From: Herbaspirillum chlorophenolicum
GTDB taxonomy: Bacteria > Pseudomonadota > Gammaproteobacteria > Burkholderiales > Burkholderiaceae_D
Direction of reading: 5' to 3'
NCBI RefSeq assembly: GCF_001189955.1
Contig: NZ_LFLT01000014.1
Location: 1 to 64,000, forward strand
DNA length: 64,000 bases
In this document: piece after piece, positions 2,332 to 22,446 of the stretch
Numbering within the stretch: position 1 is the first letter of the stretch
Layout of the letters: every line of letters starts with the position of its first letter
Notes under the pieces: model-generated
Databases searched by the model: none
Seen by the model: only the letters and a program-made list of their open reading frames with translations
What the model was told of the DNA's origin: nothing
Made by a program: the position numbers and the translations under genes

Positions 2332-3210
2332 TTAATGGGCTTGTTCCGAATTGCCATCCTGATGCGCCAGGATCTGGCGCGGCATGGTCGGTGCATTGTG
2401 CGCGATATTGGATGGCGGCGGCACGCGTACCGGCTCGCTGTGGTCGGACGATGAAGACAGCACATTGAGCGTGGCTTCCGGCGCCGCGTCCCAGACCGGG
2501 TCGTCGATGGCTTCGAACACGCGTTTCAGTTGCGCGCCCCAGCTGCGGCGGATCATCTGGAAATACTGGTTTTGCTCGTCAATCGTCACAAAACGGGTCA
2601 CGGCCAGTTCGTCGCTGTTGTAGAGCAGCAGGTCCAGCGGCAGGCCGACCGAGATATTGGACTTCAGTGTCGAGTCCATGGAAATCAGGGCGCACTTGGC
2701 AGCCTCGTCCAGTGTGGTTGTGGGCGTGACCACGCGGTCGATGATGGGTTTGCCGTATTTGGCTTCGCCGATCTGGAAATAGGTGTTTTCGTCGTGCGAC
2801 TCGATAAAGTTGCCAGCCGAATACATCTGGAACAGGCGGCAACGCTCGCCCTTGATCTGGCCGCCGAAGATGATGGAAACGTTGAAGTCGATGCCGAACT
2901 TGCCCAACTCGGCGGCTTCGCGGTCATGCACCGCGCGGATGGCGTCGCCCAGAATCTGGGCGGCTTCATACATGGACGTGGCGGTCCAGATACTGCGCCC
3001 TTCGGCGTTGGTGCGTTCGCTCAGCATCTGGCGGATCGACTGCGAAATCGAGAGATTGCCCGCAGTCATCAAAACCATGACGCGATCGCCCGGATTCTCG
3101 TAAACACTCATTTTGCGGAAAGTGCCGATATGGTCGACCCCCGCATTGGTTCGCGAATCGGAGAGAAATACCAGGCCGCTGTTCAGGCGCATGGCAACGC
3201 AATAGGTCAT
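2332..3210 (-). CDS. Anbu-type proteasome-like peptidase (ancestral beta subunit)
   Basis: Anbu proteins are Ntn-hydrolase relatives of proteasome beta subunits that assemble into open rings; their physiological substrates are unknown. The 292-residue product starts MTYCVAMRLNSGLVFLSDSR. Removal of Met1 would expose Thr2 as the N-terminal nucleophile. Asp18 and Lys33 sit where the proteasomal Asp17 and Lys33 belong, so the catalytic set looks intact. The conserved core ends near residue 245; the last 45 residues are Pro/Ser-rich and not conserved in appearance. The ATG at 3210 has only a weak Shine-Dalgarno, but processing at Thr2 fixes the start. It lies downstream of the alpha-E and ATP-grasp genes on the same strand, the partners usually found with Anbu. 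Family assignment is strong; the role is unproven. Confidence 0.93.
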   Translation of the reverse strand: MTYCVAMRLNSGLVFLSDSRTNAGVDHIGTFRKMSVYENPGDRVMVLMTAGNLSISQSIRQMLSERTNAEGRSIWTATSMYEAAQILGDAIRAVHDREAAELGKFGIDFNVSIIFGGQIKGERCRLFQMYSAGNFIESHDENTYFQIGEAKYGKPIIDRVVTPTTTLDEAAKCALISMDSTLKSNISVGLPLDLLLYNSDELAVTRFVTIDEQNQYFQMIRRSWGAQLKRVFEAIDDPVWDAAPEATLNVLSSSSDHSEPVRVPPPSNIAHNAPTMPRQILAHQDGNSEQAH

Positions 3211-3250
3211 GATGTGATCTGAAAATGTAAAAACCGGATTTTACAGGAAG

Positions 3251-3277
3251 CCTTGTCCACGAAAGTTGCGGACAAGG
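3251..3277. repeat. 8-bp inverted repeat between Anbu and alpha-E genes
   Basis: A perfect inverted repeat (3251-3258 with 3270-3277, 11-base loop) lies in the 143-bp gap between the alpha-E stop and the Anbu start. On the minus strand no strong U-run follows directly. It may be an attenuator, a processing hairpin or an operator; the sequence alone cannot decide. Confidence 0.45.
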
Positions 3278-3353
3278 ACTTCTGTCGCCGTGTGCCTACA
3301 TTAACGGCGCAATTCAGAATTTTCTTAGGCAGTGGCGATGATTTTTTGAATAT

Positions 3354-4346
3354 TCATGCTGCCAAAGGAACAAGGAAATCCCGGCTGACCCGGTTGCCTA
3401 GTTCGAAGATGCGCTCCAGAAATACCGTCAGGTAATCGTGCAGCCCGGCGTCGAGCACCTCCTCGATGCGCGCGAACTTGAGGTCGGCGTGCAGCTTGCC
3501 GGCGAAGCGTTCGGTATCGGCCGAGACGTCGTTGTGCACGTTCTTCAGGTTGGACAGCACGTGGCCCATGCAGGCCAGGAGCGAACGCGGCATGTCGGCG
3601 CGCAGGATCAGCAATTCCGCCACCCGCTCGGGCGTGATGACGTCGCGGTAGACCTTGCGGTAGATCTCGAAGCCGGACACCGAGCGCAGGATCGCGGCCC
3701 AATAGTAGAAGTCGATCTGGCCGTCGCCTTCCTCGCCCGATTGCGACTGCGATTGGGATTGGCCGTTCTGCTTTTGCGACTGGCTTTCCTTGGCGCCGTG
3801 GAACTTGACGTCGATGATGCGCGCAGTATTGTCGGCGCGCTCCAGGAAGGTGCCCAGGCGGATGAAGTGAAAGGCCTCGTCCTTCAGCATGGTGCCGATG
3901 GTGACGCCGCGCGAGAGGTGCGAGCGGTGCTTGACCCATTCGAAGAAATCGCTCGGGTTCTGCTCCAGCGCGTTGGTCTGCAGGTAGGACTGCATCTTGA
4001 TCCAGGTGGCGTTCTGGATTTCCCAGGCTTCGGTAGTCAGCGCGCCGCGCACCGCGCGCGCGTTCTCGCGTGCCTGGCGCAGGCAGGAGGCAATCGATGA
4101 AGGGTTGTTCGGATCGCGCACCATGAAGTCGATCACATCCCTCTGCGTGAGCTTGTCGTACTTCTGGTTGTAGCCGTAGAGCAGCTCGGAAATGCCGAGC
4201 ACGGCGCGCCAGCCTTGCTCGGCGTCGTCGGTCGATTGCGGCAGCAGCGCGGTTTGCACATGCACGTCGAGCATGCGCGCGGTGTTTTCGGCGCGCTCGG
4301 TGTAGCGGGCCATCCAGAACAGGTGATCGGCAGTACGGCTGAGCAT
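3354..4346 (-). CDS. Alpha-E domain-containing protein (COG2307)
   Basis: A 330-residue, all-helical alpha-E family protein, recognised by the N-terminus LSRTADHLFWMARYTERAEN and the downstream TTEAWEIQNATW and FLERADNTARIIDV segments. No enzyme activity is established for the family; it is nearly always encoded next to circularly permuted ATP-grasp proteins and is thought to work with them. The ATG at 4346 comes one base after the ATP-grasp stop (TAA-G-ATG), so the pair is translationally coupled. A low-complexity Ser/Gln stretch at about residues 185-205 interrupts the helical domain and is absent from the alpha-E half of the fusion at 12454-14958. Confidence 0.92.
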   Translation of the reverse strand: MLSRTADHLFWMARYTERAENTARMLDVHVQTALLPQSTDDAEQGWRAVLGISELLYGYNQKYDKLTQRDVIDFMVRDPNNPSSIASCLRQARENARAVRGALTTEAWEIQNATWIKMQSYLQTNALEQNPSDFFEWVKHRSHLSRGVTIGTMLKDEAFHFIRLGTFLERADNTARIIDVKFHGAKESQSQKQNGQSQSQSQSGEEGDGQIDFYYWAAILRSVSGFEIYRKVYRDVITPERVAELLILRADMPRSLLACMGHVLSNLKNVHNDVSADTERFAGKLHADLKFARIEEVLDAGLHDYLTVFLERIFELGNRVSRDFLVPLAA

Positions 4347-4347
4347 C

Positions 4348-5775
4348 TTATTTCTCCAGAATCCAGGTGTCCTTGGTGCCGCCGCCTTGCGACGAGTTCA
4401 CCACCAGCGAGCCTTCCTTCAGCGCCACGCGCGTCAGGCCGCCCTTGACCATCGTCACGCTCTTGCCGGACAGCACGAACGGGCGCAGGTCGAGGTGGCG
4501 CGGCGCGATGCCGGCCTCGACATAGGTCGGGCACACCGACAGCGCCAGCGTGGGCTGGGCGATGTAGCCGTCGGGTTTGGCGATGACGCGGGCGCGGAAG
4601 TCCTCGATCTCCTGTTTGGTCGAGGCCGGGCCGACCAGCATGCCGTAGCCGCCCGCGCCGTGCACTTCCTTGACCACCAGCTTGTCGAGGTTGGCCAGCG
4701 TGTAGTCGAGGTCTTCCTTCTTGCGGCACTGGTAGGTCGGCACGTTGTTGAGGATGGGTTCTTCCGAGAGGTAGAAACGCACCATGTCCGGCACATACGG
4801 ATAAATCGATTTGTCGTCGGCCACGCCGGTGCCGATGGCGTTGGTCAGCGTCACCTTGCCGGCGCGGTAGGCTTGCAGCAGGCCCGGTACGCCCAGCGCC
4901 GAATCGGGGCGGAACGCCAGCGGATCGAGGAAGTCGTCGTCGATGCGGCGGTAGATTACGTCCACCCGCTTGGGGCCGCGCGTGGTGCGCATGTAGACCA
5001 CGTTGTCCTTGACGAACAGGTCCTGGCCCTCGACCAGCTCCACACCCATCTGCTGGGCCAGGAAGGCGTGCTCGAAGTAGGCCGAGTTGTACATGCCCGG
5101 GGTCATCACCACCACCACCGGATCGGTCACGCCGGCCGGCGCCACCGAACGCAGGTTGTCCAGCAGCAGGTCGGGGTAATGGTCGACCGGGGCGATCTTG
5201 TGCTGCGTGAACAGGTCGGGGAACAGCCGCATCATCATCTTGCGGTTTTCCAGCATGTACGACACGCCGGAGGGTACGCGCAGGTTGTCTTCCAGCACGT
5301 AGAACTCGCCTTCGCCGGCGCGCACGATATCGACGCCGGCGATGTGCGCGTAGATGTCGTTGACCACGTTGACGTCCTGCATCTCGCGGCGGTATTGCGC
5401 ATTCTGGAAGATCTGCTCGGGCGGGATGATGCCGGCCTTGACGATCTTCTGCTCGTGGTAGATGTCGTGGATGAACATGTTCAGCGTCTTGACGCGCTGC
5501 ACGAGACCGGCTTCCAGCTTGGCCCATTCGGCCTTGTGGATGATGCGCGGGATGATGTCGAAGGGGATCAGTCGCTCGGTGCCGGCGTCGTTGCCGTAGA
5601 CCGCGAAGGTGATGCCGACGCGGCGGAAGATCAGGTCGGACTCGGCACGTTTGCGGGCGATGGTTTCTGCCGACTGCGCTGAAAGCCAATTGGCGAATTC
5701 GGCGTAGTGCTGGCGCACTTGCGGGTTGTCGCTTGCGGCGCTCCCCGAATACATCTCATCGAAAAAATGTGCCAT
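4348..5775 (-). CDS. Circularly permuted ATP-grasp type 2 family protein (COG2308), putative amide ligase
   Basis: A 475-residue COG2308 protein, first gene of the minus-strand locus with alpha-E and Anbu. ATP-grasp enzymes activate a carboxylate with ATP and join it to an amine; the substrate of this branch is unknown. Visible motifs are YVLEDNLRVPSGVSYMLENR near residues 160-180, MTPGMYNSAYFEHAFLA near 225-240, RRIDDDFLDPLAFRPDSAL near 275-295, a lysine plus glycine-rich loop VVKEVHGAGGYGMLVGP near 365-385, and a C-terminal GGGTKDTWILEK. The nucleotide-binding and acidic elements look intact, unlike those of the paralogous half of the gene at 12454-14958. The start ATG at 5775 gives the usual family length. 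Confidence 0.93.
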   Translation of the reverse strand: MAHFFDEMYSGSAASDNPQVRQHYAEFANWLSAQSAETIARKRAESDLIFRRVGITFAVYGNDAGTERLIPFDIIPRIIHKAEWAKLEAGLVQRVKTLNMFIHDIYHEQKIVKAGIIPPEQIFQNAQYRREMQDVNVVNDIYAHIAGVDIVRAGEGEFYVLEDNLRVPSGVSYMLENRKMMMRLFPDLFTQHKIAPVDHYPDLLLDNLRSVAPAGVTDPVVVVMTPGMYNSAYFEHAFLAQQMGVELVEGQDLFVKDNVVYMRTTRGPKRVDVIYRRIDDDFLDPLAFRPDSALGVPGLLQAYRAGKVTLTNAIGTGVADDKSIYPYVPDMVRFYLSEEPILNNVPTYQCRKKEDLDYTLANLDKLVVKEVHGAGGYGMLVGPASTKQEIEDFRARVIAKPDGYIAQPTLALSVCPTYVEAGIAPRHLDLRPFVLSGKSVTMVKGGLTRVALKEGSLVVNSSQGGGTKDTWILEK

Positions 5776-6067
5776 AAATTTGATTCGTTTTCCTGGTGTA
5801 AACAGGAACTTTTCTAAGTTGAATTTGACGAAAAATGAGGCGTGGAGATCTGCTGCAAATGCGCGCGCTTGCTAGCGTGTGCTCGATAAGCCTATCAGAG
5901 GCATATGGTTTTGGACAGTGGAAAATTTCATGGTTTTTATCTTTGCTCCTGATCTGTTTTTCCTTCTTGCACAGGTTCGAAAATACTGAACAGGCAGGCC
6001 CCGTTCCATCGATGGAAGTGCCCGGATGAAACGGGATGCACAGCGGAAAACGGCCGTTGCGCCTGGT

Positions 6068-6505
6068 TCAGTTCCACGGCGTGGGCGGCGGCACGGCACA
6101 CGGCGGCGGCATGTCGATGGTCTTGAAATCGGCCGGACTGACGATTTCCAGATATTCCATATCGGGCGAATAGTCGAACAGGAAATGCACGATGCCGGGC
6201 CGCTGGTGCACGCAGTCGCCGGCCTTCACCAGCGTCACCTGGTCTTCGTACATGAAGCGCGCCCAGCCCTTCAACATGATGACGATGTGGAAATTCGCCT
6301 CGTGCCGGTGCCACCCCGTGCCTTCTTCCGGCGCCATGTTGGCCTTGACCAGCTGCGCGACCACTTGCCCGCCCGTGGCTGCGGCGATGCCGAGGTCGCG
6401 GTAGAGAAAAAAGTCGCGCAGCCCTCCCGTTTCATAAGGCGTGTCGCCCTCGCATACATGCGAGAACGTGTTCCTTGCCAATACGCTTTCAGCTACCGTG
6501 TTCAT
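6068..6505 (-). CDS. Cupin domain protein
   Basis: A 145-residue single-domain cupin beginning MNTVAESVLARN. The first cupin motif is seen in GTGWHRHEANFHIVIMLKG and the second in VHQRPGIVHFLFD, giving His and Glu residues able to bind a metal. The ATG at 6505 is chosen because AAAGGAC lies a suitable distance upstream; a start ten codons earlier lacks this. Such small cupins include dioxygenases, isomerases and sensors, so the substrate cannot be told. It is followed 72 bases earlier on the map by the GST-like gene reading the same way but probably transcribed apart. Confidence 0.8.
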   Translation of the reverse strand: MNTVAESVLARNTFSHVCEGDTPYETGGLRDFFLYRDLGIAAATGGQVVAQLVKANMAPEEGTGWHRHEANFHIVIMLKGWARFMYEDQVTLVKAGDCVHQRPGIVHFLFDYSPDMEYLEIVSPADFKTIDMPPPCAVPPPTPWN

Positions 6506-6607
6506 CACATCCGTCCTTTCTGCGGCGTCCCGCATTTGGCTTGCGATAAAAATAGCTGCGGCGGCTGCCGCACCTGCGGACGCGTTCGCTGAAAAATCGA
6601 ATGCGTC

Positions 6608-7264
6608 CTAAAACTCCACATCCAGCTCATCAATATCTTCCGGCTCCTTCTTCGCGGCAGTGATCCATTCCTGCATCTCGGGCATGGCCATGATGCGCTT
6701 GCCGTAGGCCGAGCACACCGGATCCAGCTTGACGTCGTAGGTGACGAAGCGCGTGACCACCGGCGCATACATGGCGTCGGCCATGGTGCGCTGCTCGCCG
6801 AACAGGAAAGGGCCGCCGTACTTGGCCAGGCATTCCTTCCAGATGGTGGTGATGCGGTGGATGTCGGCTTCGGCGCGCGACCATACCTTGAAGTTGGGGA
6901 AGTGCGCCTTGAGGTTCATCGGCAATGCGGCGCGCAATGCCGAGAAGCCCGAATGCATTTCGCCGCATACCGCGCGGCAGTGCGCGCGCGCCGCCTGGTC
7001 GGCCGGCAGCAGCAAGGCCCTGGGACGGATTTCGTTGAGGTATTCGGCGATGGCCAGGGTGTCCCATACCAGCACGCTGCCGTGCTTGAGGCTGGGTACC
7101 AGGATGGAAGAAGACAGCAGCAGGATCTCTGCACGCGCCGTCGGATCGTCCGGCGGCACGATGTCTTCCTCGAAAGGCAGCCCGGCGAACTTGACCAGGA
7201 GCCAGCCGCGTAAGGACCAGGAAGAGTAGTTCTTGCTGGTGATGCGCAAAGTCGTCTTAGGCAT
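6608..7264 (-). CDS. Glutathione S-transferase family protein
   Basis: A 218-residue GST-fold protein. The thioredoxin-like N-terminal domain shows the Ser-rich glutathione-site segment KNYSSWSLRGWLLVKFAG, then VPSLKHGSVLVWDTLAIAEYL, where the cis-proline and the SxAI-type motif are expected. The helical C-terminal domain carries PFLFGEQRTMADAMYAPVVTR, a standard N-capping box. A good ribosome-binding site (AAAGGAC) precedes the ATG at 7264. The substrate is unknown; a stress or detoxification role is a family-level inference. Confidence 0.87.
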   Translation of the reverse strand: MPKTTLRITSKNYSSWSLRGWLLVKFAGLPFEEDIVPPDDPTARAEILLLSSSILVPSLKHGSVLVWDTLAIAEYLNEIRPRALLLPADQAARAHCRAVCGEMHSGFSALRAALPMNLKAHFPNFKVWSRAEADIHRITTIWKECLAKYGGPFLFGEQRTMADAMYAPVVTRFVTYDVKLDPVCSAYGKRIMAMPEMQEWITAAKKEPEDIDELDVEF

Positions 7265-7573
7265 GTCAGTCCTTTATCTGTTTTCTCGCAATGTTGACTT
7301 TGGGCACGTCGTCGCCGCGCGAGTACGCTGGCGCAGGCACGACATCGTTGCCGCCCTGGTCCCGCGTCTGCTCAATCGGGATGGAAAGCGGTAGCTGGGG
7401 GACATGCTTGCAAAGCGCGTGCCAGCTTGCGGATTTGTCGCTGCCAACGGTTGACAAAAAATGTCGTGATGACGGCGTGCGGGCCGCATCGGGAAAGGTA
7501 TCAGTGGCATGCATATTGCATCGCAAGGAGGACTGCGAGCGAACAATATAAGAGACAGAAGGGCGGCGTCCTC
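7265..7573. other. Intergenic region between divergent GST and phaZ genes
   Basis: About 309 bases with no convincing gene. A TTGACA hexamer sits at 7451-7456 but has no matching -10 at the normal spacing. Promoters for both flanking genes should lie here; I could not place them. An 86-codon minus frame (7266-7526) has no family features. Confidence 0.6.
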
Positions 7574-8800
7574 ATGATCAATACCTATCAGCTCTACCAG
7601 CAATATGCAGACGCCACCGATCCCCTGCGGGCTTCCGCCAGGATGATGGCGCCCGTGTTCGGGGTTGAATGGCCGGGTTTGCCGGTGCATCCCGTCATGC
7701 GCAAGCTGGCGTCGGCCTGCGAGGTGTTCGCGCGCACCCAGCTCACCCACGCCCGCCCGGATTTCGAGATCAATAGCGTTGAGGATGGCGGATGCACGGT
7801 TTCGGTGCATGAAGAGGTCGTCGCCGGCACACCCTTTTGCAGCCTGCTGCGTTTTCGCAAGGAAACGTCGGATGCCCAGCCCAAGGTGCTGGTGGTGGCG
7901 CCCATGTCCGGCCACTTCGCCACCTTGCTGCGCGGTACGGTCAAGACCCTGTTGCGCCATCATGATGTCTACATTACCGATTGGCACAATGCGCGCGATA
8001 TTCCGGCCGGGCATGGTAAGTTCGGCCTGGATGAATACGTTTCCCATGTCATCTCCTTTCTCGAGATCCTCGGGTCGGGTACCCATCTGCTGGCGGTTTG
8101 CCAGCCCACCGTCGCTGCGCTGACGGCGGCCGCCGTGATGGCCGACGACGGAAATCCGGCGCAGCCGCGCACCATGACGCTGATGGCCGGCCCGCTCGAT
8201 ACCCGGGTCAATCCCACCACCGTTAATGCGCTGGCCAAGAGCAAGCCGATCGAATGGTTCGAAAAGAACATGATCAGCACCGTGCCGGCCCGTCATCCTG
8301 GCGGCGGGAGGCGCGTGTATCCGGGCTTCATGCAACTGGCGGCGTTCATGAACATGAACCTGAACCGCCACGTTGACGCTTTCCGCAACCTGTACCACCA
8401 CCTGGCCGAAGGGGAGGATGAAAAAGCGTCGCAGATCAAGACCTTCTATGAAGAATACTTCGCCATGTCGGACCTGCCTGCCGAGTTTTACCTGGAGACT
8501 GTGCAGATGGTGTTCCAGGAGCATGCGCTCCCGCTGGGTACCTTGCAATACCAGGGACGCGACGTGAATCCGCGCGCCATCCGCCGCACTGCGCTATTCA
8601 CCATCGAGGGCGAGAAGGACGACATCTGCGCCGTCGGCCAGACTGTCGCCGCACAGGAAATGTGCAGCAGCATCCGGCCTTACATGCGCTTGCACCACGT
8701 TCAGACGGCGGTGGGGCATTACGGCGTTTTCAACGGCCGCCGCTGGGAAAACGAAATCTATCCACGCCTGCGGGATTTCATTAATATGCATCACAGGTAG
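7574..8800 (+). CDS. phaZ: Intracellular polyhydroxyalkanoate depolymerase
   Basis: A 408-residue PhaZ of the Ralstonia/Herbaspirillum intracellular type, which mobilises stored polyhydroxybutyrate granules in the cytoplasm. It starts MINTYQLYQQYADATDPLRA. The lipase-box-like segment AVCQPTVAAL places the nucleophilic Cys at residue 176, the hallmark replacing Ser in this class; later EGEKDDICAVGQT and VGHYGVFNGRRW provide the expected Asp and His. The frame continues upstream, but the ATG at 7574 fits the conserved N-terminus. It lies between the two amidoligase-type loci, with no obvious functional tie to them. Confidence 0.95.
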   Translation: MINTYQLYQQYADATDPLRASARMMAPVFGVEWPGLPVHPVMRKLASACEVFARTQLTHARPDFEINSVEDGGCTVSVHEEVVAGTPFCSLLRFRKETSDAQPKVLVVAPMSGHFATLLRGTVKTLLRHHDVYITDWHNARDIPAGHGKFGLDEYVSHVISFLEILGSGTHLLAVCQPTVAALTAAAVMADDGNPAQPRTMTLMAGPLDTRVNPTTVNALAKSKPIEWFEKNMISTVPARHPGGGRRVYPGFMQLAAFMNMNLNRHVDAFRNLYHHLAEGEDEKASQIKTFYEEYFAMSDLPAEFYLETVQMVFQEHALPLGTLQYQGRDVNPRAIRRTALFTIEGEKDDICAVGQTVAAQEMCSSIRPYMRLHHVQTAVGHYGVFNGRRWENEIYPRLRDFINMHHR

Positions 8801-8964
8801 GTACGGCGGCGTAGTCGCAGTTCCAAGGGAAGGGTTCTAAGAATAATTCGATATGAATATCCATCAGTTCGCCCATCTTCAGCAACAGGCAGGCATATAG
8901 GTGCGGATGGCGGATAGGCATATCACTACAGGTATTTACCATTTGCTCGCCGTAAAGGATCTCC

Positions 8965-11900
8965 ATGTCAATTCACGTGGCGCTGAACCATGTCACCTCG
9001 TACCAGTATGACCGTGCCATCAACCTTGGGCCGCAGGTCGTCCGCCTGCGTCCCGCACCGCACAGCCGCACTCGCATCCTGAGCTATTCGCTGCGCATCC
9101 TGCCTGAGCCGCACTTCATCAACTGGCAGCAGGACCCCGAGGCCAACTACCTGGCGCGCCTGGTGTTCCCGGAGAAGACTACCGAATTCAAGATCGAGGT
9201 CGACCTGGTGGCCGAGATGTCGGTCATCAACCCCTTCGATTTCTTCCTGGAACCCTACGCCGAGCAGTTCCCCTTCGAGTACGCCAAGGACCTGCAAAAC
9301 GAACTGATGCCTTACCGGCAGAAGCTGCCGTTGTCGCCGTTGTTCAAGAAATTCCTCGACGGCATTTCGCGCGAGAAAATGGGCAGCGCCAATTTCCTGG
9401 TCGCGCTCAACCAGAAGCTGGCCGACCACATCGACTACACCATCCGCATGGAACCCGGCGTGCAGACGCCGGAGCAGACGCTGGAACTGAAGTCGGGCTC
9501 TTGCCGTGATTCGTCCTGGCTGCTGGTGCAACTGATGCGCCATCTGGGACTGGCGGCGCGATTTGTCTCCGGCTACCTGATCCAGTTGACGGCCGACCAG
9601 AAATCGCTGGATGGTCCTTCCGGCCCCGAGGCCGATTTCACCGACCTGCATGCCTGGTGCGAGGTCTACCTGCCGGGCGCCGGCTGGATCGGGCTGGACC
9701 CAACGTCGGGGTTATTCGCCGGCGAAGGCCATATCCCGCTGTCGTGCACGCCCGAGCCTGCTTCGGCGGCGCCGGTGTCGGGCCTGGTCGATCCCTGCGA
9801 AGTCGAGTTTGAACACCTGATGAGCGTCAAGCGCATCTGGGAAGCGCCGCGCGTGACCAAGCCCTACAGCGAGGAGCAGTGGGCCGAGATTGAAGCGCTC
9901 GGCCACGCCATCGACCGTGACCTGGTCGCCAATGACGTGCGCCTGACCATGGGCGGCGAGCCGACCTTCGTCTCGCTCGACTATCCGGATGAGCCGGAAT
10001 GGAATACCGCCGCCATGGGCGCGACCAAGAAGCCGCTGGCAGCCGAGCTCTACCACCGCATGCGCGACAAGTATGCGGCGCAAGGCCTGCCGCATTTCGG
10101 CCAGGGTAAGTGGTATCCCGGCGAGCAGTTGCCGCGCTGGGCGCTGAACTGCTACTGGCGGCGCGACGGCGAACCGATCTGGCTCAATCCTGCGCTTATC
10201 GGTGACGAGACCAAACCGAACGTGACCGACAAGATTGTCACTAGCCATTTCCTGCACCGCGTGGCGCAGCGTTTGAAGGTGGATGGAAAGAACGTGTTTC
10301 CCGCCTATGAGGACGTGTTCTATTACATGTGGCGCGAGCGTCGCCTGCCCGGCAATGTCGATCCCTTCGATTCGCGCGTGGACGACAAGCAGGAGCGCGA
10401 ACGCCTGATGCGCGTCTTCACGCAAGGCCTGCAAAGTGCGGCGGGCCACGTGCTGCCGCTGGCCCGCCGTTTCGACGGCCGCGGCTGGCAGAGCGGCAAC
10501 TGGTTTTTGCGCAGCGAGCGCTGCTACCTGTATCCGGGCGATTCGCCGCTGGGTTATCGCCTGCCGCTCGATTCGCTGCCCTGGGTGAGCAGCAGCGAGT
10601 ATCCGGCGGTGTATCCGGCCGACCCGTCGCAGGCGTTCAAGGGGCTGCCCGGTGCGGCCGAGATCCGGCGCCAGGCCGGCAGTCCGCAGGAGCCGCCATT
10701 GCGTGCGGGAGCGCCAACCGGCATCGGCACGGCCAGGCTGGCGCGAGGGCAGGCCGGGGACGCCGCGGCCAATGCCGTGAATGCCGCTGGCGTGGCACCG
10801 GCGCATGGCGAATCGGCCAGCCGGATCACCCGTACCGCGCTGTCGGCCGAAGTGCGCAACGGCGTGTTCTACCTGTTCATGCCGCCGTTGGCGCAACTGG
10901 AGCATTACCTGGAGCTGGTGGCCGCCATCGAAGCGGTGGCGGAGGAGCTCAAGCAGCCGGTACTGCTGGAAGGCTACGAGCCGCCCAACGACCCGCGCTT
11001 GCGCAAGTTCAGTGTTACGCCCGACCCCGGCGTGATCGAGGTCAACATCCAGCCGGCCAACAACTGGGGCGAACTGGTGGAACAGACCACCCACCTGTAC
11101 GAGGCCGCGCGCGAGTCCCGCCTGACCACCGAGAAGTTCATGCTGGACGGCCACCACTCCGGCACCGGCGGCGGCAACCACATGGTGCTGGGCGGCATCA
11201 CCACCGGCGACTCGCCCTTCCTGCGCCGGCCGGACTTGCTGCGCAGCCTGATTTCGTACTGGCACAACCACCCGTCGCTGTCCTATCTGTTCTCGGGCAT
11301 GTTCATCGGCCCGACTTCGCAGGCGCCGCGCATCGACGAGGCCCGCAACGATTCGACGGTGGAGATTGAACTGGCCTTCGCCGAGATGGACAAGCAGGTT
11401 GCCAAGGGGGAATGCCCGCCGTGGCTGGTGGACCGGCTGCTGCGCAACCTGCTGATCGACGTCACCGGCAACACCCACCGTGCCGAGTTCTGCATCGACA
11501 AGATGTATTCGCCCGACAGCGCCACCGGCCGCCTGGGCCTGCTGGAGCTGCGCGCCTTCGAGATGCCGCCGCATGCGCGCATGAGCCTGACCCAGCAGTT
11601 GCTGCTGCGCGGACTGGTGGCGCGTTTCTGGCAGGAACCGTACAAGCCGGCGCGGCTGGTGCGTTGGGGGACCGAACTGCACGACCGCTTCCTGCTGCCG
11701 CATTTCATCGAGCAGGATTTCCGTGACGTGATCGACGATATGAACGAGGCCGGTTATGCCGTGAAGGCCGAGTGGTTCGCGCCGCACATGGAATTCCGCT
11801 GCCCCAAGATCGGCGACTACGCGGTCAAGGGCATGGAGATCGAATTGCGCACGGCGCTGGAACCATGGCATGTGCTGGGCGAGGAAAGCGGTGCCGGCGG

Positions 11901-12339
11901 CACCGCACGCTACGTCGACTCATCGCTGGAACGGCTGCAGGTGAAGGTGACCGGCATGGCCTCTGACCGTTATGTGCTGACCTGCAACGGCGTGTCCGTG
12001 CCGGTGCAGCCTACCGGCACGGTCGGCCAGTTCGTGGCCGGCATCCGCTACCGCGCCTGGCAGCCGCCGTCGGCGCTGCACCCGACCATTCCGGTGGATT
12101 CGCCGCTGACCTTCGACCTGGTCGATACCTGGAACGGCCGCAGCCTGGGCGGATGCCAGTACCACGTGGTGCATCCGGGCGGACGCAGTTACGAGACCTT
12201 CCCGGTCAACGCCTTCGAGGCTGAAAGCCGCCGTTTGGCGCGCTATTTCCGCCTCAACCACACGCCGGGAAAATTCGATGTGCAGCCGGCACGGCCGTCT
12301 ATCGAGTTTCCTTTTACGTTAGACTTACGCTACTTCTAA
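8965..12339 (+). CDS. Transglutaminase-like / DUF2126 protein (COG4196 type)
   Basis: A 1124-residue two-part protein, first gene of the plus-strand locus. Residues 1-300 form a transglutaminase/protease-like domain with an intact Cys180, His229, Asp245 triad, in SGSCRDSSW, DLHAWCEVY and GLDPTSG. The rest is DUF2126, with MGGEPTFVSLDYPDEPEWN near 330, VIEVNIQPANNWGELVEQTT near 690, GGGNHMVLGGITTGDSPF near 735 and LLELRAFEMPPHARMSLTQQ near 855. DUF2126 has been proposed (Iyer and colleagues, from memory) to be a glutamine-synthetase-like carboxylate-amine ligase. An Ala/Gly-rich linker at about residues 577-615 separates subregions. Of similar size to a mycobacterial homologue next to an ATP-grasp/alpha-E fusion. 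The substrate is unknown. Confidence 0.92.
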   Translation: MSIHVALNHVTSYQYDRAINLGPQVVRLRPAPHSRTRILSYSLRILPEPHFINWQQDPEANYLARLVFPEKTTEFKIEVDLVAEMSVINPFDFFLEPYAEQFPFEYAKDLQNELMPYRQKLPLSPLFKKFLDGISREKMGSANFLVALNQKLADHIDYTIRMEPGVQTPEQTLELKSGSCRDSSWLLVQLMRHLGLAARFVSGYLIQLTADQKSLDGPSGPEADFTDLHAWCEVYLPGAGWIGLDPTSGLFAGEGHIPLSCTPEPASAAPVSGLVDPCEVEFEHLMSVKRIWEAPRVTKPYSEEQWAEIEALGHAIDRDLVANDVRLTMGGEPTFVSLDYPDEPEWNTAAMGATKKPLAAELYHRMRDKYAAQGLPHFGQGKWYPGEQLPRWALNCYWRRDGEPIWLNPALIGDETKPNVTDKIVTSHFLHRVAQRLKVDGKNVFPAYEDVFYYMWRERRLPGNVDPFDSRVDDKQERERLMRVFTQGLQSAAGHVLPLARRFDGRGWQSGNWFLRSERCYLYPGDSPLGYRLPLDSLPWVSSSEYPAVYPADPSQAFKGLPGAAEIRRQAGSPQEPPLRAGAPTGIGTARLARGQAGDAAANAVNAAGVAPAHGESASRITRTALSAEVRNGVFYLFMPPLAQLEHYLELVAAIEAVAEELKQPVLLEGYEPPNDPRLRKFSVTPDPGVIEVNIQPANNWGELVEQTTHLYEAARESRLTTEKFMLDGHHSGTGGGNHMVLGGITTGDSPFLRRPDLLRSLISYWHNHPSLSYLFSGMFIGPTSQAPRIDEARNDSTVEIELAFAEMDKQVAKGECPPWLVDRLLRNLLIDVTGNTHRAEFCIDKMYSPDSATGRLGLLELRAFEMPPHARMSLTQQLLLRGLVARFWQEPYKPARLVRWGTELHDRFLLPHFIEQDFRDVIDDMNEAGYAVKAEWFAPHMEFRCPKIGDYAVKGMEIELRTALEPWHVLGEESGAGGTARYVDSSLERLQVKVTGMASDRYVLTCNGVSVPVQPTGTVGQFVAGIRYRAWQPPSALHPTIPVDSPLTFDLVDTWNGRSLGGCQYHVVHPGGRSYETFPVNAFEAESRRLARYFRLNHTPGKFDVQPARPSIEFPFTLDLRYF

Positions 12340-12453
12340 CTCAGCCGGGCGCGGCGTTCGCGCCGCGCCGGTCCTCCCGTCCACGCAAGCCGGTTCGCCG
12401 GCGCCAACAGACAGTGGCGGACCCGCCCGCATCGCGCCCGCCCAGCCCCATTT

Positions 12454-14958
12454 ATGCACCAGCGTTTACTGGAAAGCTATCCAGCCAGCAGCGATCGTTA
12501 CGACGAAATGCTGTCAGCCGACGGCCGCCTGCGGCCGCATTGGCGAACGCTGATCGACCAGCTTGAAAACCTGTCGCCGGAGATGCTGCGCCGGCGCGCC
12601 AGCGAGGTGCGCGAGGCCATCGCTTCGGATGGCGTCACCTACAACGTCTACGCCGATCCCAAGGGCGCCAACCGCCCGTGGGAGCTGGACCTGCTGCCGC
12701 ACATCGTGTCGGCCGACGACTGGCAGTTCCTGGCCAAGGCCGTGGCCCAGCGCGCACGCCTGATGAACGCGGTGCTGGCCGACCTTTATGGCGAACAGTC
12801 CTTGCTCAGCGAAGGCCTGCTGCCGCCGGCGCTGGTGTTCGGCCAGCACGGCTACCTGATGCCGTGCCATGGCATCAAGCCGCCGGGCGGCGTGCATTTG
12901 CATGCCTATGCGATCGACCTGGCGCGCTCGGCCGATGGCACCTGGTGGGTGGTGTCGGACCGCACCCAGGGGCCGTCGGGCACCGGCTACGCCCTGCAGA
13001 ATCGCCAGATCATGTCGCGCGCCATGCCCGAGGCATTGCGCGACATGCACGTGCAATCGCCGCATGGCTACTTCCACACGCTGCGCGCCATGCTCACGCA
13101 ACTGGCGCCAGCCAACGGCGAGATGCCGCTGATCGTGCTGCTCACGCCGGGCCCCTATAACGAAACCTATTCCGAGCATGCCTTTCTGGCGCACACGCTG
13201 GGCTTCCCGCTGGTCGAAGGCGTCGACCTGACGGTGCGAGGCGACCAGGTGTTCCTGAAGACCCTGAACGGCCTGCGTCGCGTGCATGCGATCCTGCGCC
13301 GCATGGATGACGATTATTGCGATCCGCTGGAACTGCGTGCCGATTCGGCGCTGGGAATTCCCGGCCTGACGCAGGCGGCGCGCCTGGGCAATGTGCTGGT
13401 GGCCAATTCGCTGGGCAGCGGCGTGCTGGAGTCGACCGCATTGCACGGTTTCCTGCCGGCCATCAGCGAGCGCCTGCTGGGTGAGCCGCTGGCGCTGCCG
13501 GCGGTGGCGTCCTGGTGGTGCGGCGAGAAGCCTGCGCTGGATTACACGCTGGAACATCTCGACGATCTGGTCATCGTGCCAGCCTTTTCTTCCATGCGGA
13601 TGCAGCCGGTATTCGGCCATGCCGTGACCGGCGCTGCGCGGCGCCGCCTGATCGAAAGCCTGCAACTGCAGCCGCACGCCTACGCGGCGCAAGAGTGGGT
13701 GCGCCTGTCGCAGGCGCCGGTGATGTCGCGCAGCGGCGACTATGGCCTGATGGGCCGCACCATCAGCCTGCGCGTGTTTGCCGTGGCCGACGGCCATGGC
13801 GGTTATCAAGTGATGCCGGGCGGCCTGACCCGCGTGGCATCGCGCCAGCGCCGCGATGTGGTGTCGATGCAGCAGGGCGGCACCACCAAGGATGTCTGGG
13901 TGCTGCGTGAAAACGAACCCGGCCCGGCCGAGCTCATGCCCGACGATGTCGTCGATACGGTCAACGGTACGCAGATCCGCAGCACCGTCGACGTTTCATC
14001 CCACTCCGGTGAAAACCTGTTCTGGATGGGGCGCTATTCCGAGCGCGTGAAGAACCTCGCGCGCCTGCTGCGCACCACCTTGCAATACACGATGGACGGC
14101 CAGAGCGAAAGCCGCGGCATCCTGGGCAGCGTGAGCTGGATTTGCAGCCAGCTTGGCGTGCTCATGCCCAAGTCCGATCCGCGCCCGACCATCACCGGCC
14201 TGCAGCAAAGCCTGCAGGCTGCCGTCATCGATCCGTCCGCACCGGTCAGCGTAGCGACCCAGGTGCGCCAGCTGGCGCATGCGGCCTACCAGGTGCGTGA
14301 ACATCTGTCTCTGGACAATTGGCATGCCCTGACCAAGATGCCGGCCATGGTGCAGGAGCGCATCAGCACGCCTACCGGCGCCCAGCATGCACTGGGCAAT
14401 GTGATCGATGCCTGTTCCGGACTGGCCGGCCATGCCCTGGATGACATGACGCGCGACGCCGGCTGGCAGTTCCTGATGGTGGGGCGCCATATCGAACGCA
14501 TGGTCAACATGGCGACGCTGTTCGACAACTTCCTGCGCCTGCCCCCGGCACGCCAGACGGCCGCGCTGTCGTGGCTGCTGGAATCGGCCAGCAGTATCGT
14601 CACCTACCGTGTGCGCTATCGGCGCACGCCCGAGTGGCTGCCGGTGCTGCACTTGCTGGTATTCGATGCCAGCAATCCGCACGGCATGGCCTACCAGTTC
14701 CGCATGCTGCAGCAATATCTTGCCGACATCGCGCAGCAACTGGGCTTGCTGAGCATGACCATTCCGTCGCATCTGGCCGGCCAGCTGGATGCGATGAACC
14801 TGGCCGATTTCGCGCACGGATCGCCCACCATGGAAGAAGCCAACGCACGCCTGGCGCAACTGATGCGCGATGCCGTCGGCGGCGGCGCCATGCTATCCGA
14901 CGACTTGTCGCGCCACTACTTCACGCCGTTGACGGCGCCGGTCAGCCAGGGGGTATGA
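12454..14958 (+). CDS. Circularly permuted ATP-grasp / alpha-E fusion protein
   Basis: An 834-residue fusion: COG2308 ATP-grasp at about residues 1-490, then an alpha-E domain from about 513 (SSHSGENLFWMGRYSERVKN) to the end. It is the single-chain counterpart of the two separate genes at 3354-5775. LRRMDDDYCDPLELRADSAL and GGTTKDVWVLRENE match the ATP-grasp. However, the EDN element of the paralogue reads SDRTQGPSGTGYALQNR here, and the lysine/glycine-rich loop is replaced by VIVPAFSSMRMQPVFG. ATP binding may therefore be lost or altered. It follows the DUF2126 gene by 114 bases and ends one base before the next ATG, so the three genes are probably one operon. Confidence 0.92.
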   Translation: MHQRLLESYPASSDRYDEMLSADGRLRPHWRTLIDQLENLSPEMLRRRASEVREAIASDGVTYNVYADPKGANRPWELDLLPHIVSADDWQFLAKAVAQRARLMNAVLADLYGEQSLLSEGLLPPALVFGQHGYLMPCHGIKPPGGVHLHAYAIDLARSADGTWWVVSDRTQGPSGTGYALQNRQIMSRAMPEALRDMHVQSPHGYFHTLRAMLTQLAPANGEMPLIVLLTPGPYNETYSEHAFLAHTLGFPLVEGVDLTVRGDQVFLKTLNGLRRVHAILRRMDDDYCDPLELRADSALGIPGLTQAARLGNVLVANSLGSGVLESTALHGFLPAISERLLGEPLALPAVASWWCGEKPALDYTLEHLDDLVIVPAFSSMRMQPVFGHAVTGAARRRLIESLQLQPHAYAAQEWVRLSQAPVMSRSGDYGLMGRTISLRVFAVADGHGGYQVMPGGLTRVASRQRRDVVSMQQGGTTKDVWVLRENEPGPAELMPDDVVDTVNGTQIRSTVDVSSHSGENLFWMGRYSERVKNLARLLRTTLQYTMDGQSESRGILGSVSWICSQLGVLMPKSDPRPTITGLQQSLQAAVIDPSAPVSVATQVRQLAHAAYQVREHLSLDNWHALTKMPAMVQERISTPTGAQHALGNVIDACSGLAGHALDDMTRDAGWQFLMVGRHIERMVNMATLFDNFLRLPPARQTAALSWLLESASSIVTYRVRYRRTPEWLPVLHLLVFDASNPHGMAYQFRMLQQYLADIAQQLGLLSMTIPSHLAGQLDAMNLADFAHGSPTMEEANARLAQLMRDAVGGGAMLSDDLSRHYFTPLTAPVSQGV

Positions 14959-14959
14959 G

Positions 14960-15946
14960 ATGACGGAAAAAGACACTGCCGGCCAGACCTCCGGCGCCAG
15001 CGCGGCCGTCGCCGATGGGCGCGTCATCTACCAGCTCCACCACCAGACTACCTACCAGTATTCTCTGCCGGTGCGCCTGTCGCACCAGATGCTGCATCTG
15101 ACGCCGCGCGAGCTGGCCTGGCAGCGCTGCCTCTCGCACCAGGTCAACATCCAGCCCGCACCGGCGCTGGTGTGCAGCTATGAGGACAATTTCGGCAACG
15201 TCATCAAGGCGTTCTCGCTGGACACCGACCACACCAGCCTCGATGTCGTGGCCGAGTCCTGGGTCGAGTTGACGCCGCGCCTGCTGCCGGCACACTCCAT
15301 GCCTTGGGAGGAGGCGGTCGCATTGCTGTCTTACCAGGGCGCGCGGCCTTTGTCGCCGGGGATGCTGGATGCGTCCAATTTCCTGTTCGAGTCTTCCCAT
15401 GTGCGCATCAAGCGCGAGTTCATCCATTACGCGGAGCAATGTTTCACGCCGGGTTTGCCGTTGCTGGACGGGGTGCGCGCGCTGATGCTGCGCATCTTCG
15501 ATGAGTTCGCCTTCGATCCTGCCGCCACCACGGTCTCCACGCCGGTGACCGACGTGTTCGCCAACCGGCGCGGCGTGTGCCAGGACTTTGCGCACCTGAT
15601 GCTGTCCTGCCTGCGCTCGGTCGGGCTTGCCGCACGCTACGTCAGCGGCTATCTGCTGACCCAGCCGCCGCCCGGGCAGCCGCGCCTGATCGGCGCCGAT
15701 GCCTCGCATGCCTGGGTATCGGTATATTGTCCCGGACGCGATGGCGAAGCCGGCGTGTGGATCGATGCCGATCCCACCAACGGCCTGTTTCCCGACACCA
15801 GCCACATTACGCTGGGGTGGGGGCGCGATTTCCTCGATGTCTCGCCGTTGCGTGGCGTATTGATCGGCGGCGGCCAGCAAACCATGCAGGTGGCGGTGAC
15901 GGTGATGCCGGGCGAAGAGGCCGGGGAGCTGGCGTTCGCTATCTGA
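14960..15946 (+). CDS. Transglutaminase family protein (COG1305)
   Basis: A 328-residue transglutaminase-fold protein with an N-terminal beta domain (VIYQLHHQTTYQYSLPVRLS) and a catalytic core with Cys207 (RRGVCQDFAHLML), His250 (DASHAWVSVY) and Asp271 (WIDADPTNG). The family covers amidases, peptidases and crosslinking enzymes; in this neighbourhood it is thought to cleave or transfer an amide made by the ATP-grasp and DUF2126 partners. The ATG lies one base after the fusion gene stop, implying coupled translation. It is the only free-standing transglutaminase in the window; the Anbu locus at 2332-5775 has none of its own. Confidence 0.92.
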   Translation: MTEKDTAGQTSGASAAVADGRVIYQLHHQTTYQYSLPVRLSHQMLHLTPRELAWQRCLSHQVNIQPAPALVCSYEDNFGNVIKAFSLDTDHTSLDVVAESWVELTPRLLPAHSMPWEEAVALLSYQGARPLSPGMLDASNFLFESSHVRIKREFIHYAEQCFTPGLPLLDGVRALMLRIFDEFAFDPAATTVSTPVTDVFANRRGVCQDFAHLMLSCLRSVGLAARYVSGYLLTQPPPGQPRLIGADASHAWVSVYCPGRDGEAGVWIDADPTNGLFPDTSHITLGWGRDFLDVSPLRGVLIGGGQQTMQVAVTVMPGEEAGELAFAI

Positions 15947-16001: not shown

Positions 16002-17576
16002 TTACGCCTGCGGCTTCAGCAAGAACACACTGACTGCCTGCTGCAGCCGCTGCGCCTGATTCTGCAAGGTGCTCGCCGCGGCGGCAGCCTGTTCCACCAG
16101 CGCCGCATTTTGCTGTGTGGTCTGGTCCATCTGCACGATGGCGTCGTTGATTTGCTGGATGCCGGAAGCTTGCTCACGGCCGGCGGCGGTGATTTCGGCG
16201 ACCACATCGCACACTTTACGGATGCTCTCGACCACGCCATCCATGGTGCTGCCGGTCTGTTGCACCAGTTGGTAGCCGTTGTCGACGTTGCTGACCGATT
16301 CTTCGATCAGGGTCTTGATTTCCTTGGCCGCCGACGCGCTGCGCTGGGCCAGCGAGCGCACTTCCGAAGCCACCACCGCGAAACCGCGTCCCTGTTCGCC
16401 GGCACGCGCCGCTTCCACGGCGGCATTCAAGGCCAGGATATTGGTCTGGAACGAAATGCCGTCGATCACGTTGATGATATTGACGATCTGTTTGGACGAC
16501 GAATCGATCGCATTCATGGTGGTGATCATGCGCTGCACCGACTCGCCCGCATTCCCGGCGATCTCGGAAGCCGAGTTGGCCAATTGGCTGGCCTGCGCCG
16601 CATTGTCGGCGTTTTGCCGCACGGTGGAGGTCAGTTCTTCGATGGCGGCAGCGGTTTCTTCCAGCGAGCCGGCTTGCTGCTCGGTGCGTGCCGAGAGGTC
16701 GAAGTTGCCGGTGGCGATTTCGCTGGTGGCAATGGCGATTGCGTCGCTGCCGGTGCGTACTTCACTGACGATGTCTTGCAAGTTGCCGTTCATCGATTTC
16801 ATTGCCTGCAGCAAACTCGCTTTCTTGCCATCGACGGCGATTTCACTGCTGAGGTCGCCGGCCGCGATACGGTTGGCGATGTCGGAGGCATACGCCGGTT
16901 CACCGCCCAACTGGCCGACTACGCCGCGCGAGATGGCCAGTGCCAGAGTGACCCCGATGGCCAATGCAATGACGCCCAGCACGATCATGGTGTGCTTCGC
17001 GGCCTGATAGAACTCGGTTGCCTCTGTACTGGCTTCGTTGTTGAGCCGGTCTTCCAGCGCCGCCAGCTCACCCAGTTTCACGCGGCGCTCCGCTTGCTTG
17101 GCAGCCAGACCATTGTCCAGCAGCTGGCGCACGCCATTGATGTCGTCGGCGTCTGCCAATTCGGTCAGCTTTTGCACCAGTGGGGCCGCAGATGCTGAAA
17201 GTGCCTTGACCTGCGCCATGGTGGCTTTTTCGATGTCGGCGGTCTCTTCCAGGGTATTGAACATGGTATCGAGTTCCTTTTCGATGCCCTGGTAGTTGGC
17301 GACTTCCTTCTTGATGCGCTCGTTCAGGATTTTTCGCGCCGCCGCATCGGGCGCCAGCAGCAGGTCGCGCGTGGCCATCGATTGCTCATACAGCGAGGTG
17401 CGCAAGGCCACTGCCAGCCGTGCTTCGACATTGTTGACGTTGCTGATGGAATTGAGGCGGGTATTGACTTCGCCCATGCGGTTGACGCCGATGGCGATGA
17501 CCAGGGCCAGCAGCACGAGCAGGACACCGAATCCCAGATTGAGGCGGTTGGAAACTTTCATTTGTGACAGTTTCAT
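16002..17576 (-). CDS. Methyl-accepting chemotaxis protein
   Basis: A 524-residue transmembrane chemoreceptor. TM1 lies at about residues 11-30 ([20 protein letters not shown]), a periplasmic four-helix-bundle-type sensor at about 31-190, and TM2 at about 195-215. A HAMP linker ([20 protein letters not shown]) leads into a long signalling coiled coil. The hairpin tip [20 protein letters not shown] is the conserved CheA/CheW-binding segment. AGAAGGGATT precedes the ATG at 17576. The ligand cannot be predicted and no chemotaxis genes are nearby. Confidence 0.95.
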
Positions 17577-19838: not shown

Positions 19839-20112
19839 GTCCCTGCTCGCCGTGTACCTGTTGTTCGATGCGCTTCATGCGCCGGATGTAGATCACCACG
19901 ATGGCCAGGTAGATCAGGATCATGCCCTGGGCCGCCATGTAGAAAGAAAGGGGCCAGCCGAACAGGTGGATCCGGTCCAGTTCGCGTGCGAAGAAAATGA
20001 AAAAGAACGTGGCCAGAAACCAGACGGCGAGCAGCACGGCGGTATGTTTGCGGATCTTGCGCCAGTGGTTGCCGGCGTCGCCGGGGCCGTGGTGAGGTGT
20101 GCCTTGGTCCAT
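19828..20112 (-). CDS. DUF4212 small subunit of sodium/solute symporter
   Basis: A 94-residue protein with two predicted membrane helices (about 25-45, VLLAVWFLATFFFIFFA, and 55-78, FYMAAQGMILIYLAIVVIYI). This matches DUF4212, small partners encoded directly before SSS-type symporters. It overlaps the symporter start by 11 bases and sits 1 base after the histidine kinase stop region, so the four genes from 22446 down to 17796 look like one operon. Confidence 0.88.
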   Translation of the reverse strand: MDQGTPHHGPGDAGNHWRKIRKHTAVLLAVWFLATFFFIFFARELDRIHLFGWPLSFYMAAQGMILIYLAIVVIYIRRMKRIEQQVHGEQGHGE

Positions 20113-20113
20113 G

Positions 20114-21718: not shown

Positions 21719-21756
21719 CAGGGGCGGGAGGGCGGCCGGTAGCGGCCGTCATCGCA

Positions 21757-22446
21757 TCAGGCGGCGTTGCTGGCGGTTTCGGGGAGCTTTTCGAGGCAAT
21801 AGCCCAGCCCGCGTACGGTAGCGATACGCACGCCGCCGACTTCGATTTTCTTGCGCAGGCGATGGACATAAACCTCGATGGCATTGTTGCTGACTTCCTC
21901 TCCCCATTCGCACAAATGGTCTACCAGCTGTTCTTTAGAGACCAGCCGCCCTGTGCGTTGCAATAATACTTCCAGAAGGCCCAGTTCACGCGCGGATAAT
22001 TCCAGCATCTGTTCGCCGATGTAGGCAATGCGGCCGACCTGGTCGTACGAGAGCGGCCCATGCTTGATCACGGTCGGGCCGCCGCCGGCGCCACGCCGGG
22101 TGAGGGCGCGCACGCGTGCTTCCAGCTCGGACAGGGCAAACGGCTTGGCCATGTAGTCGTCGGCGCCCAGGTCCAGCCCCTGCACGCGCTGCTCCACCGA
22201 ATCGGCTGCCGTCAGGATCAATACCGGCAGGCGCGAGTTGCGCGCACGCAGGCGGCGCAGCACTTCCAGTCCGGACATCTTGGGCAGGCCCAGATCCAGG
22301 ATCAGCAAATCGAAATCCTGGGTCGAGAGGGCGGAATCGGCTTCCAGGCCATTCTTGACGCAATCGGCAGCGTATCCGGAATGGCGCAGGGACCGCGTCA
22401 ATCCATCGGCCAGAACACTGTCGTCTTCAGCTAAGAGGATGCGCAT
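21757..22446 (-). CDS. OmpR-family response regulator
   Basis: A 229-residue two-domain regulator. The receiver domain starts MRILLAEDDSVLADGL, with the phospho-acceptor Asp51 in LLILDLGLPKM and the conserved Lys in DYMAKPFAL. The C-terminal winged-helix DNA-binding domain includes RELGLLEVLLQRTGRLVSKE and NAIEVYVHRLRKKIEVGG. It is first in the operon with the kinase (38-base gap) and the symporter, so it likely activates these genes. Confidence 0.95.
   Translation of the reverse strand: MRILLAEDDSVLADGLTRSLRHSGYAADCVKNGLEADSALSTQDFDLLILDLGLPKMSGLEVLRRLRARNSRLPVLILTAADSVEQRVQGLDLGADDYMAKPFALSELEARVRALTRRGAGGGPTVIKHGPLSYDQVGRIAYIGEQMLELSARELGLLEVLLQRTGRLVSKEQLVDHLCEWGEEVSNNAIEVYVHRLRKKIEVGGVRIATVRGLGYCLEKLPETASNAA

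Follow-up and report, generated by a model that had tools for sequence, protein, structure and literature searches.

What do two adjacent, divergently oriented gene clusters that bring proteasome-like, ATP-grasp, alpha-E, transglutaminase and DUF2126 proteins together within 13.6 kb do, and do they belong to one system? The clusters occupy positions 2332 to 15946 of the 64,000-nucleotide stretch analyzed here (the window; contig NZ_LFLT01000014.1) from Herbaspirillum chlorophenolicum, the draft genome of which is 5.3 Mb. Locus 1, on the minus strand, encodes the circularly permuted ATP-grasp ligase AG1 (4348-5775; 475 amino acids (aa); Pfam E 5.8e-170), the free alpha-E protein aE1 (3354-4346; 330 aa; Pfam E 4.5e-99; all-helical model) and the proteasome-like Ntn hydrolase Anbu (2332-3210; 292 aa; Pfam Proteasome E 3.9e-5). 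Locus 2, on the plus strand, encodes TG/DUF2126 (8965-12339), in which a transglutaminase domain (TGb; residues ~1-260) is fused to DUF2126 (residues 276-1122; 1346 bits), a fusion of an ATP-grasp-like half and an alpha-E half (AG2/aE2; 12454-14958; Pfam), and the free transglutaminase TGc (14960-15946; 328 aa; Pfam). TGa denotes the transglutaminase that belongs to the canonical Anbu operon. A preliminary description of the window had named all these families with exact start and end coordinates, in agreement with the open reading frames and Pfam. It omitted the cupin, glutathione S-transferase (GST) and PhaZ genes in the interval between the loci, which matter because two sigma-54 promoter-like sites sit between GST and PhaZ. 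We propose, at a probability of about 0.36, that the 13.6 kb constitute one nitrogen-limitation module of two divergent sigma-54 units, which would scavenge nitrogen by ligating, processing and hydrolyzing amides and in which the AG2-alphaE protein would act as a pseudo-ligase partner.

The two loci very probably form one system, as judged from collinear single operons in other genera, nested occurrence and a shared divergent sigma-54 region. In genomes G034 and G042 one strand carries the six genes in a single collinear series, with intergenic distances of -53 to 96 bases (41, -4, -4, 2 and -53 bases in G034). The order AG1-aE1-TGb/DUF2126-AG2/aE2-TGc is kept as a single run in G041, G043, G053, G067, G068, G076 and G082 (the TGc of G082 was seen only in the genome-wide transglutaminase search and not in the locus map), with Anbu beside this run in G082 and one gene off in G043, G053, G067 and G068. 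TGb/DUF2126 also stands in one run with AG1, aE1 and Anbu in G080, G086, G099 and G116, where a genome-wide search gave no second Bact_transglu_N match.

Two sets of genomes were used for co-occurrence, a relatives set (120 genomes, own genome included) and a phylum set (150 genomes), with three alpha-E-positive genomes common to both. Among the relatives, 87 genomes have alpha-E, 85 Anbu, 65 DUF2126 and 55 the fusion; every DUF2126 genome carries alpha-E, and every fusion genome carries both DUF2126 and a free alpha-E. The families are widespread across the phylum set as well, with alpha-E in 83/150, Anbu in 53, DUF2126 in 46/150 and the fusion, counted as open frames longer than 800 aa, in 44. 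Here alpha-E accompanies DUF2126 in 46/46 genomes, free alpha-E accompanies the fusion in 44/44 (the copy in G265 being partial, at a contig end), and 52 of the 53 Anbu genomes have alpha-E (the exception is G212); the fusion occurs without DUF2126 in G142, G230, G242 and G265. Within the genus, DUF2126, two alpha-E and Anbu are present together in 32/33 other genomes, the exception being G028, which is 63% complete. The assumption of the preliminary description that the two loci share one system is borne out by these data and by the common sigma-54 region: independent presence and absence of the loci was checked and not seen, the occurrence being nested.

What is new here is that back-to-back sigma-54 promoter-like sites lie between the loci and that such sites are enriched before both loci elsewhere. 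A weighted sigma-54 scan placed the two best sites of the 64 kb back to back in the GST-PhaZ spacer. The minus-strand site (7424-7409; TGGCACGCGCTTTGCA), a full consensus match with a score of 25.5, faces GST-cupin-AG1-aE1-Anbu; the GST family gene (6608-7264) is first behind it, followed on the same strand by the gene for a cupin-domain protein (6068-6535), which lies between GST and AG1. The plus-strand site (7505-7520; TGGCATGCATATTGCA), with a score of 24.6, faces PhaZ-TG/DUF2126-AG2/aE2-TGc, and the polyhydroxybutyrate (PHB) depolymerase family gene PhaZ (plus strand; 408 aa; PHB_depo_C, E 3e-89) runs from an ATG at 7574 to 8800. The expectation from shuffled sequence is 0.07 sites scoring at least 25, and 0.7 scoring at least 24, per 64 kb. 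When 13 loci from Herbaspirillum and sister genomes were aligned, the two sites stood out as the most clearly conserved parts of an intergenic region that barely aligns beyond the gene starts; the left site of G060 is present but unaligned with the others, and the right site is weaker in G024 and G060. Moreover, G016, G017 and G027 have no GST, cupin or PhaZ there, and the corresponding site pair lies directly between AG1 and TGb/DUF2126, which links the sites with the core genes as well as with GST and PhaZ.

At a threshold of at least 22.5 of 25.5, the fetched loci (which include Herbaspirillum, the rows being not all independent) have a site upstream of AG1 in 20/66, TGb/DUF2126 in 7/45, GST in 11/11 and PhaZ in 6/11 cases, while the comparison genes have one in 9/282 (controls), 3/62 (Anbu), 0/25 (PurM) and 0/35 (AG2/aE2) cases. 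A further collection of 78 named loci minus two from Herbaspirillum, many of them related Comamonadaceae-type loci, yielded sites at 20/77 TGb/DUF2126 and 10/25 AG1 genes, and at 3/71 AG2/aE2 genes and 8/329 controls. AG1 and TGb/DUF2126 each have their own site in L250, L254, L255, L264 and L270.

That nitrogen controls parts of the system is already known, and the new element is the control region that both Herbaspirillum loci share. In the Burkholderia cenocepacia ntrC mutant (PMC5491218), values of -8.2 for an ATP-grasp, -9.4 for an alpha-E and -9.4 and -6.0 for transglutaminase genes are reported, together with -6.6 for a PHB depolymerase and -5.3 for a GST gene. The genes concerned (I35_5080-5083, encoding ATP-grasp, alpha-E, transglutaminase and large transglutaminase, and I35_4672-4673, encoding PHB depolymerase and GST) belong to the same families as those discussed here. 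By locus number they form two separate groups, whereas in Herbaspirillum they are joined at one divergent region, with Anbu, AG2/aE2 and TGc in addition. In Pseudomonas putida, the nitrogen-limitation-induced operon PP_2685-PP_2688 likewise carries a transglutaminase and a proteasome-like gene, but the passages of PMC7801951 that describe it name no locus-2 gene. PP_2686-2688 rose 12.6-, 11.0- and 14.7-fold in the wild type under nitrogen limitation, along with urtABCD, and were assigned to NtrB/NtrC by the authors (PMC7801951); an earlier array gave 11.1-, 6.6- and 7.1-fold for PP2685-2687 (PMC3325844). Moreover, a predicted sigma-54 regulon includes the COG of Anbu (PMC12316311), and clustering of these domains with urea metabolism is reported for marine metagenomes (PMC3597751). 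Taken with these published data, the sigma-54 sites point to a nitrogen-limitation module and suggest that both loci are switched on together at nitrogen shortage. By analogy, NtrC control of the Herbaspirillum units is likely.

Which reactions could such a module carry out? The preliminary description held that its ligases make or attach an amide-linked compound or peptide, and this is weakened for one of the two ATP-grasp proteins. The glycine-rich loop and the E-x-N motif are functional motifs of ATP-grasp enzymes, and both are intact in AG1, which matches its family and has 3n6x as the closest solved structure. The AG2 half of the fusion is probably a pseudo-ligase and no ligase, because key ATP-grasp residues are missing across 103 sequences: N164 is replaced by Arg in 99%, E162 is most often Ala (54%), and the AG1 residue stands at each of positions 375, 376, 377 and 378 in less than 30%. 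The alpha-E protein aE1 has two ER motifs, E17-R18 and E169-R170, and both are retained in the family of the aE2 half. The aE1 motifs lie in similar stretches, ERAENTAR (17-24) and ERADNTAR (169-176), suggesting an internal duplication in alpha-E. A Cys-His-Asp triad aligns in TGa, TGb and TGc; in TG/DUF2126 it consists of C180, H229 and D245 and is invariant in 36 sequences. For the DUF2126 part, a glutamine-synthetase fold is predicted from a structural model, which glutamine synthetases fit better than Dop, at 8-14% identity in the structural alignments. DUF2126 would thus share its fold with glutamine synthetase and gamma-glutamylmethylamide synthetase (GmaS), but differs from them in having no significant profile match and in being fused to a transglutaminase.

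Anbu resembles the solved structures 5loy, 5nyw, 5nyj, 5nyf and 5lox (E 8e-88 to 8e-67, the best being 5loy), and it has Thr1, Asp17 and Lys32, the residues named in PMC6376114; Asp17 and Lys32 are found in 60/60 relatives chosen by a Thr-Tyr start. In the phylum set an Anbu match is missing from 31/83 alpha-E and 19/46 DUF2126 genomes, in a single-protein search that a distant Anbu could escape. As judged from these matches, Anbu is not universal in the system, and the pattern suggests that it is not essential to it. For the Yersinia bercovieri Anbu, passages of PMC6376114 report that no peptidase activity was seen and that it formed no stable complex with the other proteins of its operon. 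The earlier suggestion that an Anbu ring degrades tagged protein or product therefore finds no support: given the gaps in Anbu occurrence and these published negatives, the proteasome-like end step is the weakest link of that model, although it may still apply in this order, in which the nearer relatives mostly carry Anbu (84/87 alpha-E genomes).

Collectively, the system is probably an amide ligation-transamidation-hydrolysis pathway that extracts nitrogen from amine, amide or peptide compounds. Such ligate-process-hydrolyze logic is known for gamma-glutamylated amines. In the mechanism that we favor, NtrC would activate unit 1 (GST-cupin-AG1-alphaE-Anbu) and unit 2 (PhaZ-TG/DUF2126-AG2/alphaE-TGc) at nitrogen shortage, and read-through transcription would reach the core genes. 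Carboxylate-amine ligation at the expense of ATP would be carried out both by AG1, together with its alpha-E partner, and by the DUF2126 domain with its predicted glutamine-synthetase fold, the most likely substrates being glutamyl or peptidyl carboxylates on one side and ammonia, amines or amino acids on the other. The resulting amide would be transferred or hydrolyzed via a Cys thioester by the transglutaminase domains, of which one is fused to a proposed ligase, and Anbu, where present, may hydrolyze a later intermediate, while the conserved AG2-alphaE pseudo-ligase could serve as a partner or regulator of the active enzymes. The cell would in this way obtain nitrogen from amine, amide and peptide compounds that it could not otherwise use. 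The wider proposal of a hitherto unrecognized nitrogen-scavenging pathway of Proteobacteria, in which the glutamine-synthetase-fold/transglutaminase chimera, induced by nitrogen limitation, both conjugates and releases amines with an ATP-grasp/alpha-E partner, a dedicated AG2/alphaE controller that no longer uses ATP and Anbu as an optional final hydrolase instead of a proteasome awaiting a tag, is unlikely on present evidence.

Several observations weigh against this nitrogen-scavenging mechanism. The system's substrate and product appear in none of the results. AG2 keeps Lys369 in 72% of sequences as well as other family columns, and loss of activity is not certain. The DUF2126 model has a predicted local distance difference test score (pLDDT) of 71.6, and comparison by hhalign with a six-sequence glutamine synthetase profile gave a probability of 0.6%, which is not significant. 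With respect to control, sigma-54 involvement in Herbaspirillum is proposed from promoter-like sites, and NtrC control is transferred from other genera; reading the aligned spacer by eye, no NtrC box was recognized. Transcription is assumed to continue from cupin into AG1 across 292 bases and from PhaZ into TG/DUF2126 across 164 bases. An own site is missing at 46/66 AG1 and 38/45 TG/DUF2126 genes of the fetched loci, no site precedes AG1 in any of the 11 genera with a symporter directly upstream, and there is none in the GST-TG/DUF2126 spacer of L251. Moreover, in the P. putida rpoN mutant PP_2686-2688 were still up, by 14.2, 16.0 and 19.6, as was urtABCD, and PP_2685, called proteasome-like, changed only 1.12-fold in the wild type (PMC7801951). 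Dependence on sigma-54 is hence supported in one species (B. cenocepacia) and contradicted in another (P. putida).

The output of the system could instead be a product and not nitrogen: the ligases would make a specific amide-linked metabolite or peptide, such as a protectant, signal or metallophore, which the transglutaminases and Anbu would trim. We regard this as somewhat unlikely. It would account for the presence of two distinct ligase folds side by side, for the high conservation of DUF2126 (13 chosen sequences are 54-70% identical to the Herbaspirillum copy) and for the finding that no uptake gene was recognized within the collinear operons. On the other hand, synthesis of a nitrogen-rich amide during nitrogen shortage would seem uneconomic, and the published co-regulation with urea, nitrate and peptide uptake points to acquisition. 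The literature passages found name no substrate for Anbu, alpha-E, the permuted ATP-grasp or DUF2126.

A system resembling the Pup-proteasome pathway, in which the glutamine-synthetase-fold ligase or AG1 would tag proteins with a peptide or an amino acid under nitrogen starvation for Anbu to degrade or de-tag, appears decidedly unlikely. The Herbaspirillum module differs from the Pup ligase/depupylase pair PafA/Dop and its proteasome in several respects. The G034 operon is too compact for a tag gene (tag genes elsewhere in the genomes were not sought), no AAA ATPase was seen among the scanned proteins of the window, Anbu has the gaps in occurrence and the published negatives described above, and the DUF2126 model is closer to glutamine synthetases than to Dop.

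The control region that PhaZ and GST share with the core genes, together with their parallel decrease in the B. cenocepacia ntrC mutant, would fit a system by which a starving cell recycles its own reserves of nitrogen and carbon through turnover of protein or storage polymer, with PhaZ as the carbon arm, and the GST-cupin-PhaZ block is also found beside locus 2 in L251 and G060. However, in the maps no group other than Herbaspirillum, G060 and L251 has PhaZ or GST next to the system, and both are missing from this place in three of the Herbaspirillum genomes mapped, which makes this explanation very doubtful. Two unrelated pathways adjacent by chance would allow for the 22/87 alpha-E-positive relatives (one of them 63% complete) that have no DUF2126, but this is scarcely credible and was rejected in view of the collinear operons (G034, G042), the constant presence of alpha-E with DUF2126 and the common control region. 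A known phage defense system was likewise ruled out, since the six proteins gave zero PADLOC matches.

For the nitrogen-scavenging module, the analysis supplies points that can be tested, namely a growth condition (nitrogen limitation) and a core (AG1, alpha-E and a transglutaminase). It also singles out AG2 as a protein expected not to bind ATP and the DUF2126-transglutaminase fusion as an enzyme of guessable chemistry; a dispensable Anbu would move attention away from proteolysis.

How did the arrangement come about? The canonical Anbu operon consists of ATP-grasp, alpha-E, transglutaminase and Anbu (PMC6376114, PMC5666114, after Iyer et al. 2009). Locus 1 keeps this order on one strand for ATP-grasp, alpha-E and Anbu, but the mapped Herbaspirillum loci lack the transglutaminase, have GST and cupin upstream and are attached to a second locus. 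In 11 other genera an SSF symporter stands directly before AG1, mostly preceded by a response regulator and a histidine kinase, and purM is often on the far side of the operon. Here, a chemoreceptor (MCP; 16002-17576, minus strand), locus 2, PhaZ, GST and cupin stand exactly between the same symporter (17796-19838, minus strand; symporter, kinase and response regulator block, 17799-22446) and AG1. G060 has the order symporter, locus 2, PhaZ, GST, cupin, AG1 and keeps TGa between aE1 and Anbu, a position where no TGa is found in the 13 mapped Herbaspirillum loci (the aE1-Anbu gap here is 143 bases). Genus genomes have exactly two Bact_transglu_N matches in 33/34 cases (0 in G028), and both belong to locus 2 in the 13 mapped loci. 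From these gene orders, we read the history as locus 2 having been inserted next to its partner, with TGa lost afterwards, although the first step may have run the other way.

A tree of 91 transglutaminases places the DUF2126-fused type on one side of a branch with support 100, with 2 changes required for the locus-2 type and 5 for the Anbu-operon type; the tree was drawn from 29/118 fused and 29/97 locus-2 sequences plus all 33 others, and it has several long branches. TGc groups with the locus-2 type, ruling out that it is a displaced Anbu-operon transglutaminase. By this sequence evidence the Anbu operon here has lost its own transglutaminase, and the free TGc belongs to locus 2. The earlier count of one Anbu and one free transglutaminase is thus correct, with the amendment that the free one is a locus-2 paralogue and that the Anbu operon's own is missing in the genus. 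TGa is absent from 23/31 genera with DUF2126 versus 2/21 without (labels by hand; G100 dropped as ambiguous, G107 without AG1 for the tree, Herbaspirillum as one row), and from 26/46 phylum-set genomes with DUF2126 versus 6/37 without (counted by hand as transglutaminase matches minus DUF2126 minus fusion, with a Fisher test). The association yields only 4 to 5 independent pairs on well-supported branches, which is not significant, and it is not established that TGa can be dispensed with once DUF2126 is present.

Searched at E 0.001, the whole assembly contains one DUF2126, two alpha-E, one Anbu, two Bact_transglu_N and two CP_ATPgrasp_2 matches, with no further copies outside the window. The nearest named relatives of the DUF2126 gene are from H. 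frisingense (91%) and H. aquaticum (88%), and recA lies at 31022-32059. For H. seropedicae two PhaZ are reported, the granule-bound Hsero_1622 and Hsero_0639 (45.5 kDa) (PMC3783465), and the PhaZ at 7574-8800 may be the counterpart of the latter. The MCP gene adjoins TGc, and G060 has a gene of similar size there in the opposite orientation; the MCP may sense the module's substrate as its ligand.

Variant loci were also encountered. In two Herbaspirillum loci, L165 (G017) and L168 (G027), aE1 and Anbu are set apart by other genes, over about 15 kb and 6 kb respectively, and judged from these Anbu can be unlinked from AG1-aE1. Comamonadaceae-type loci L250, L253, L254, L269, L270, L271 and L273 have a large gene between AG1 and TG/DUF2126, which is comEC in L254, where it was scanned, and was matched by length or start only in the others. 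The TG/DUF2126 of L263, on a contig binned as Phycisphaerae, is 60% identical to the Herbaspirillum copy and is a case of transfer or misbinning. In L251, from a Burkholderiaceae metagenome-assembled genome, GST-cupin-PhaZ diverges from locus 2, resembling Herbaspirillum. The system is expanded in L125 (G098): the genome has four alpha-E matches, and a single 24 kb contig holds three of these along with Anbu and several ATP-grasp and transglutaminase genes.

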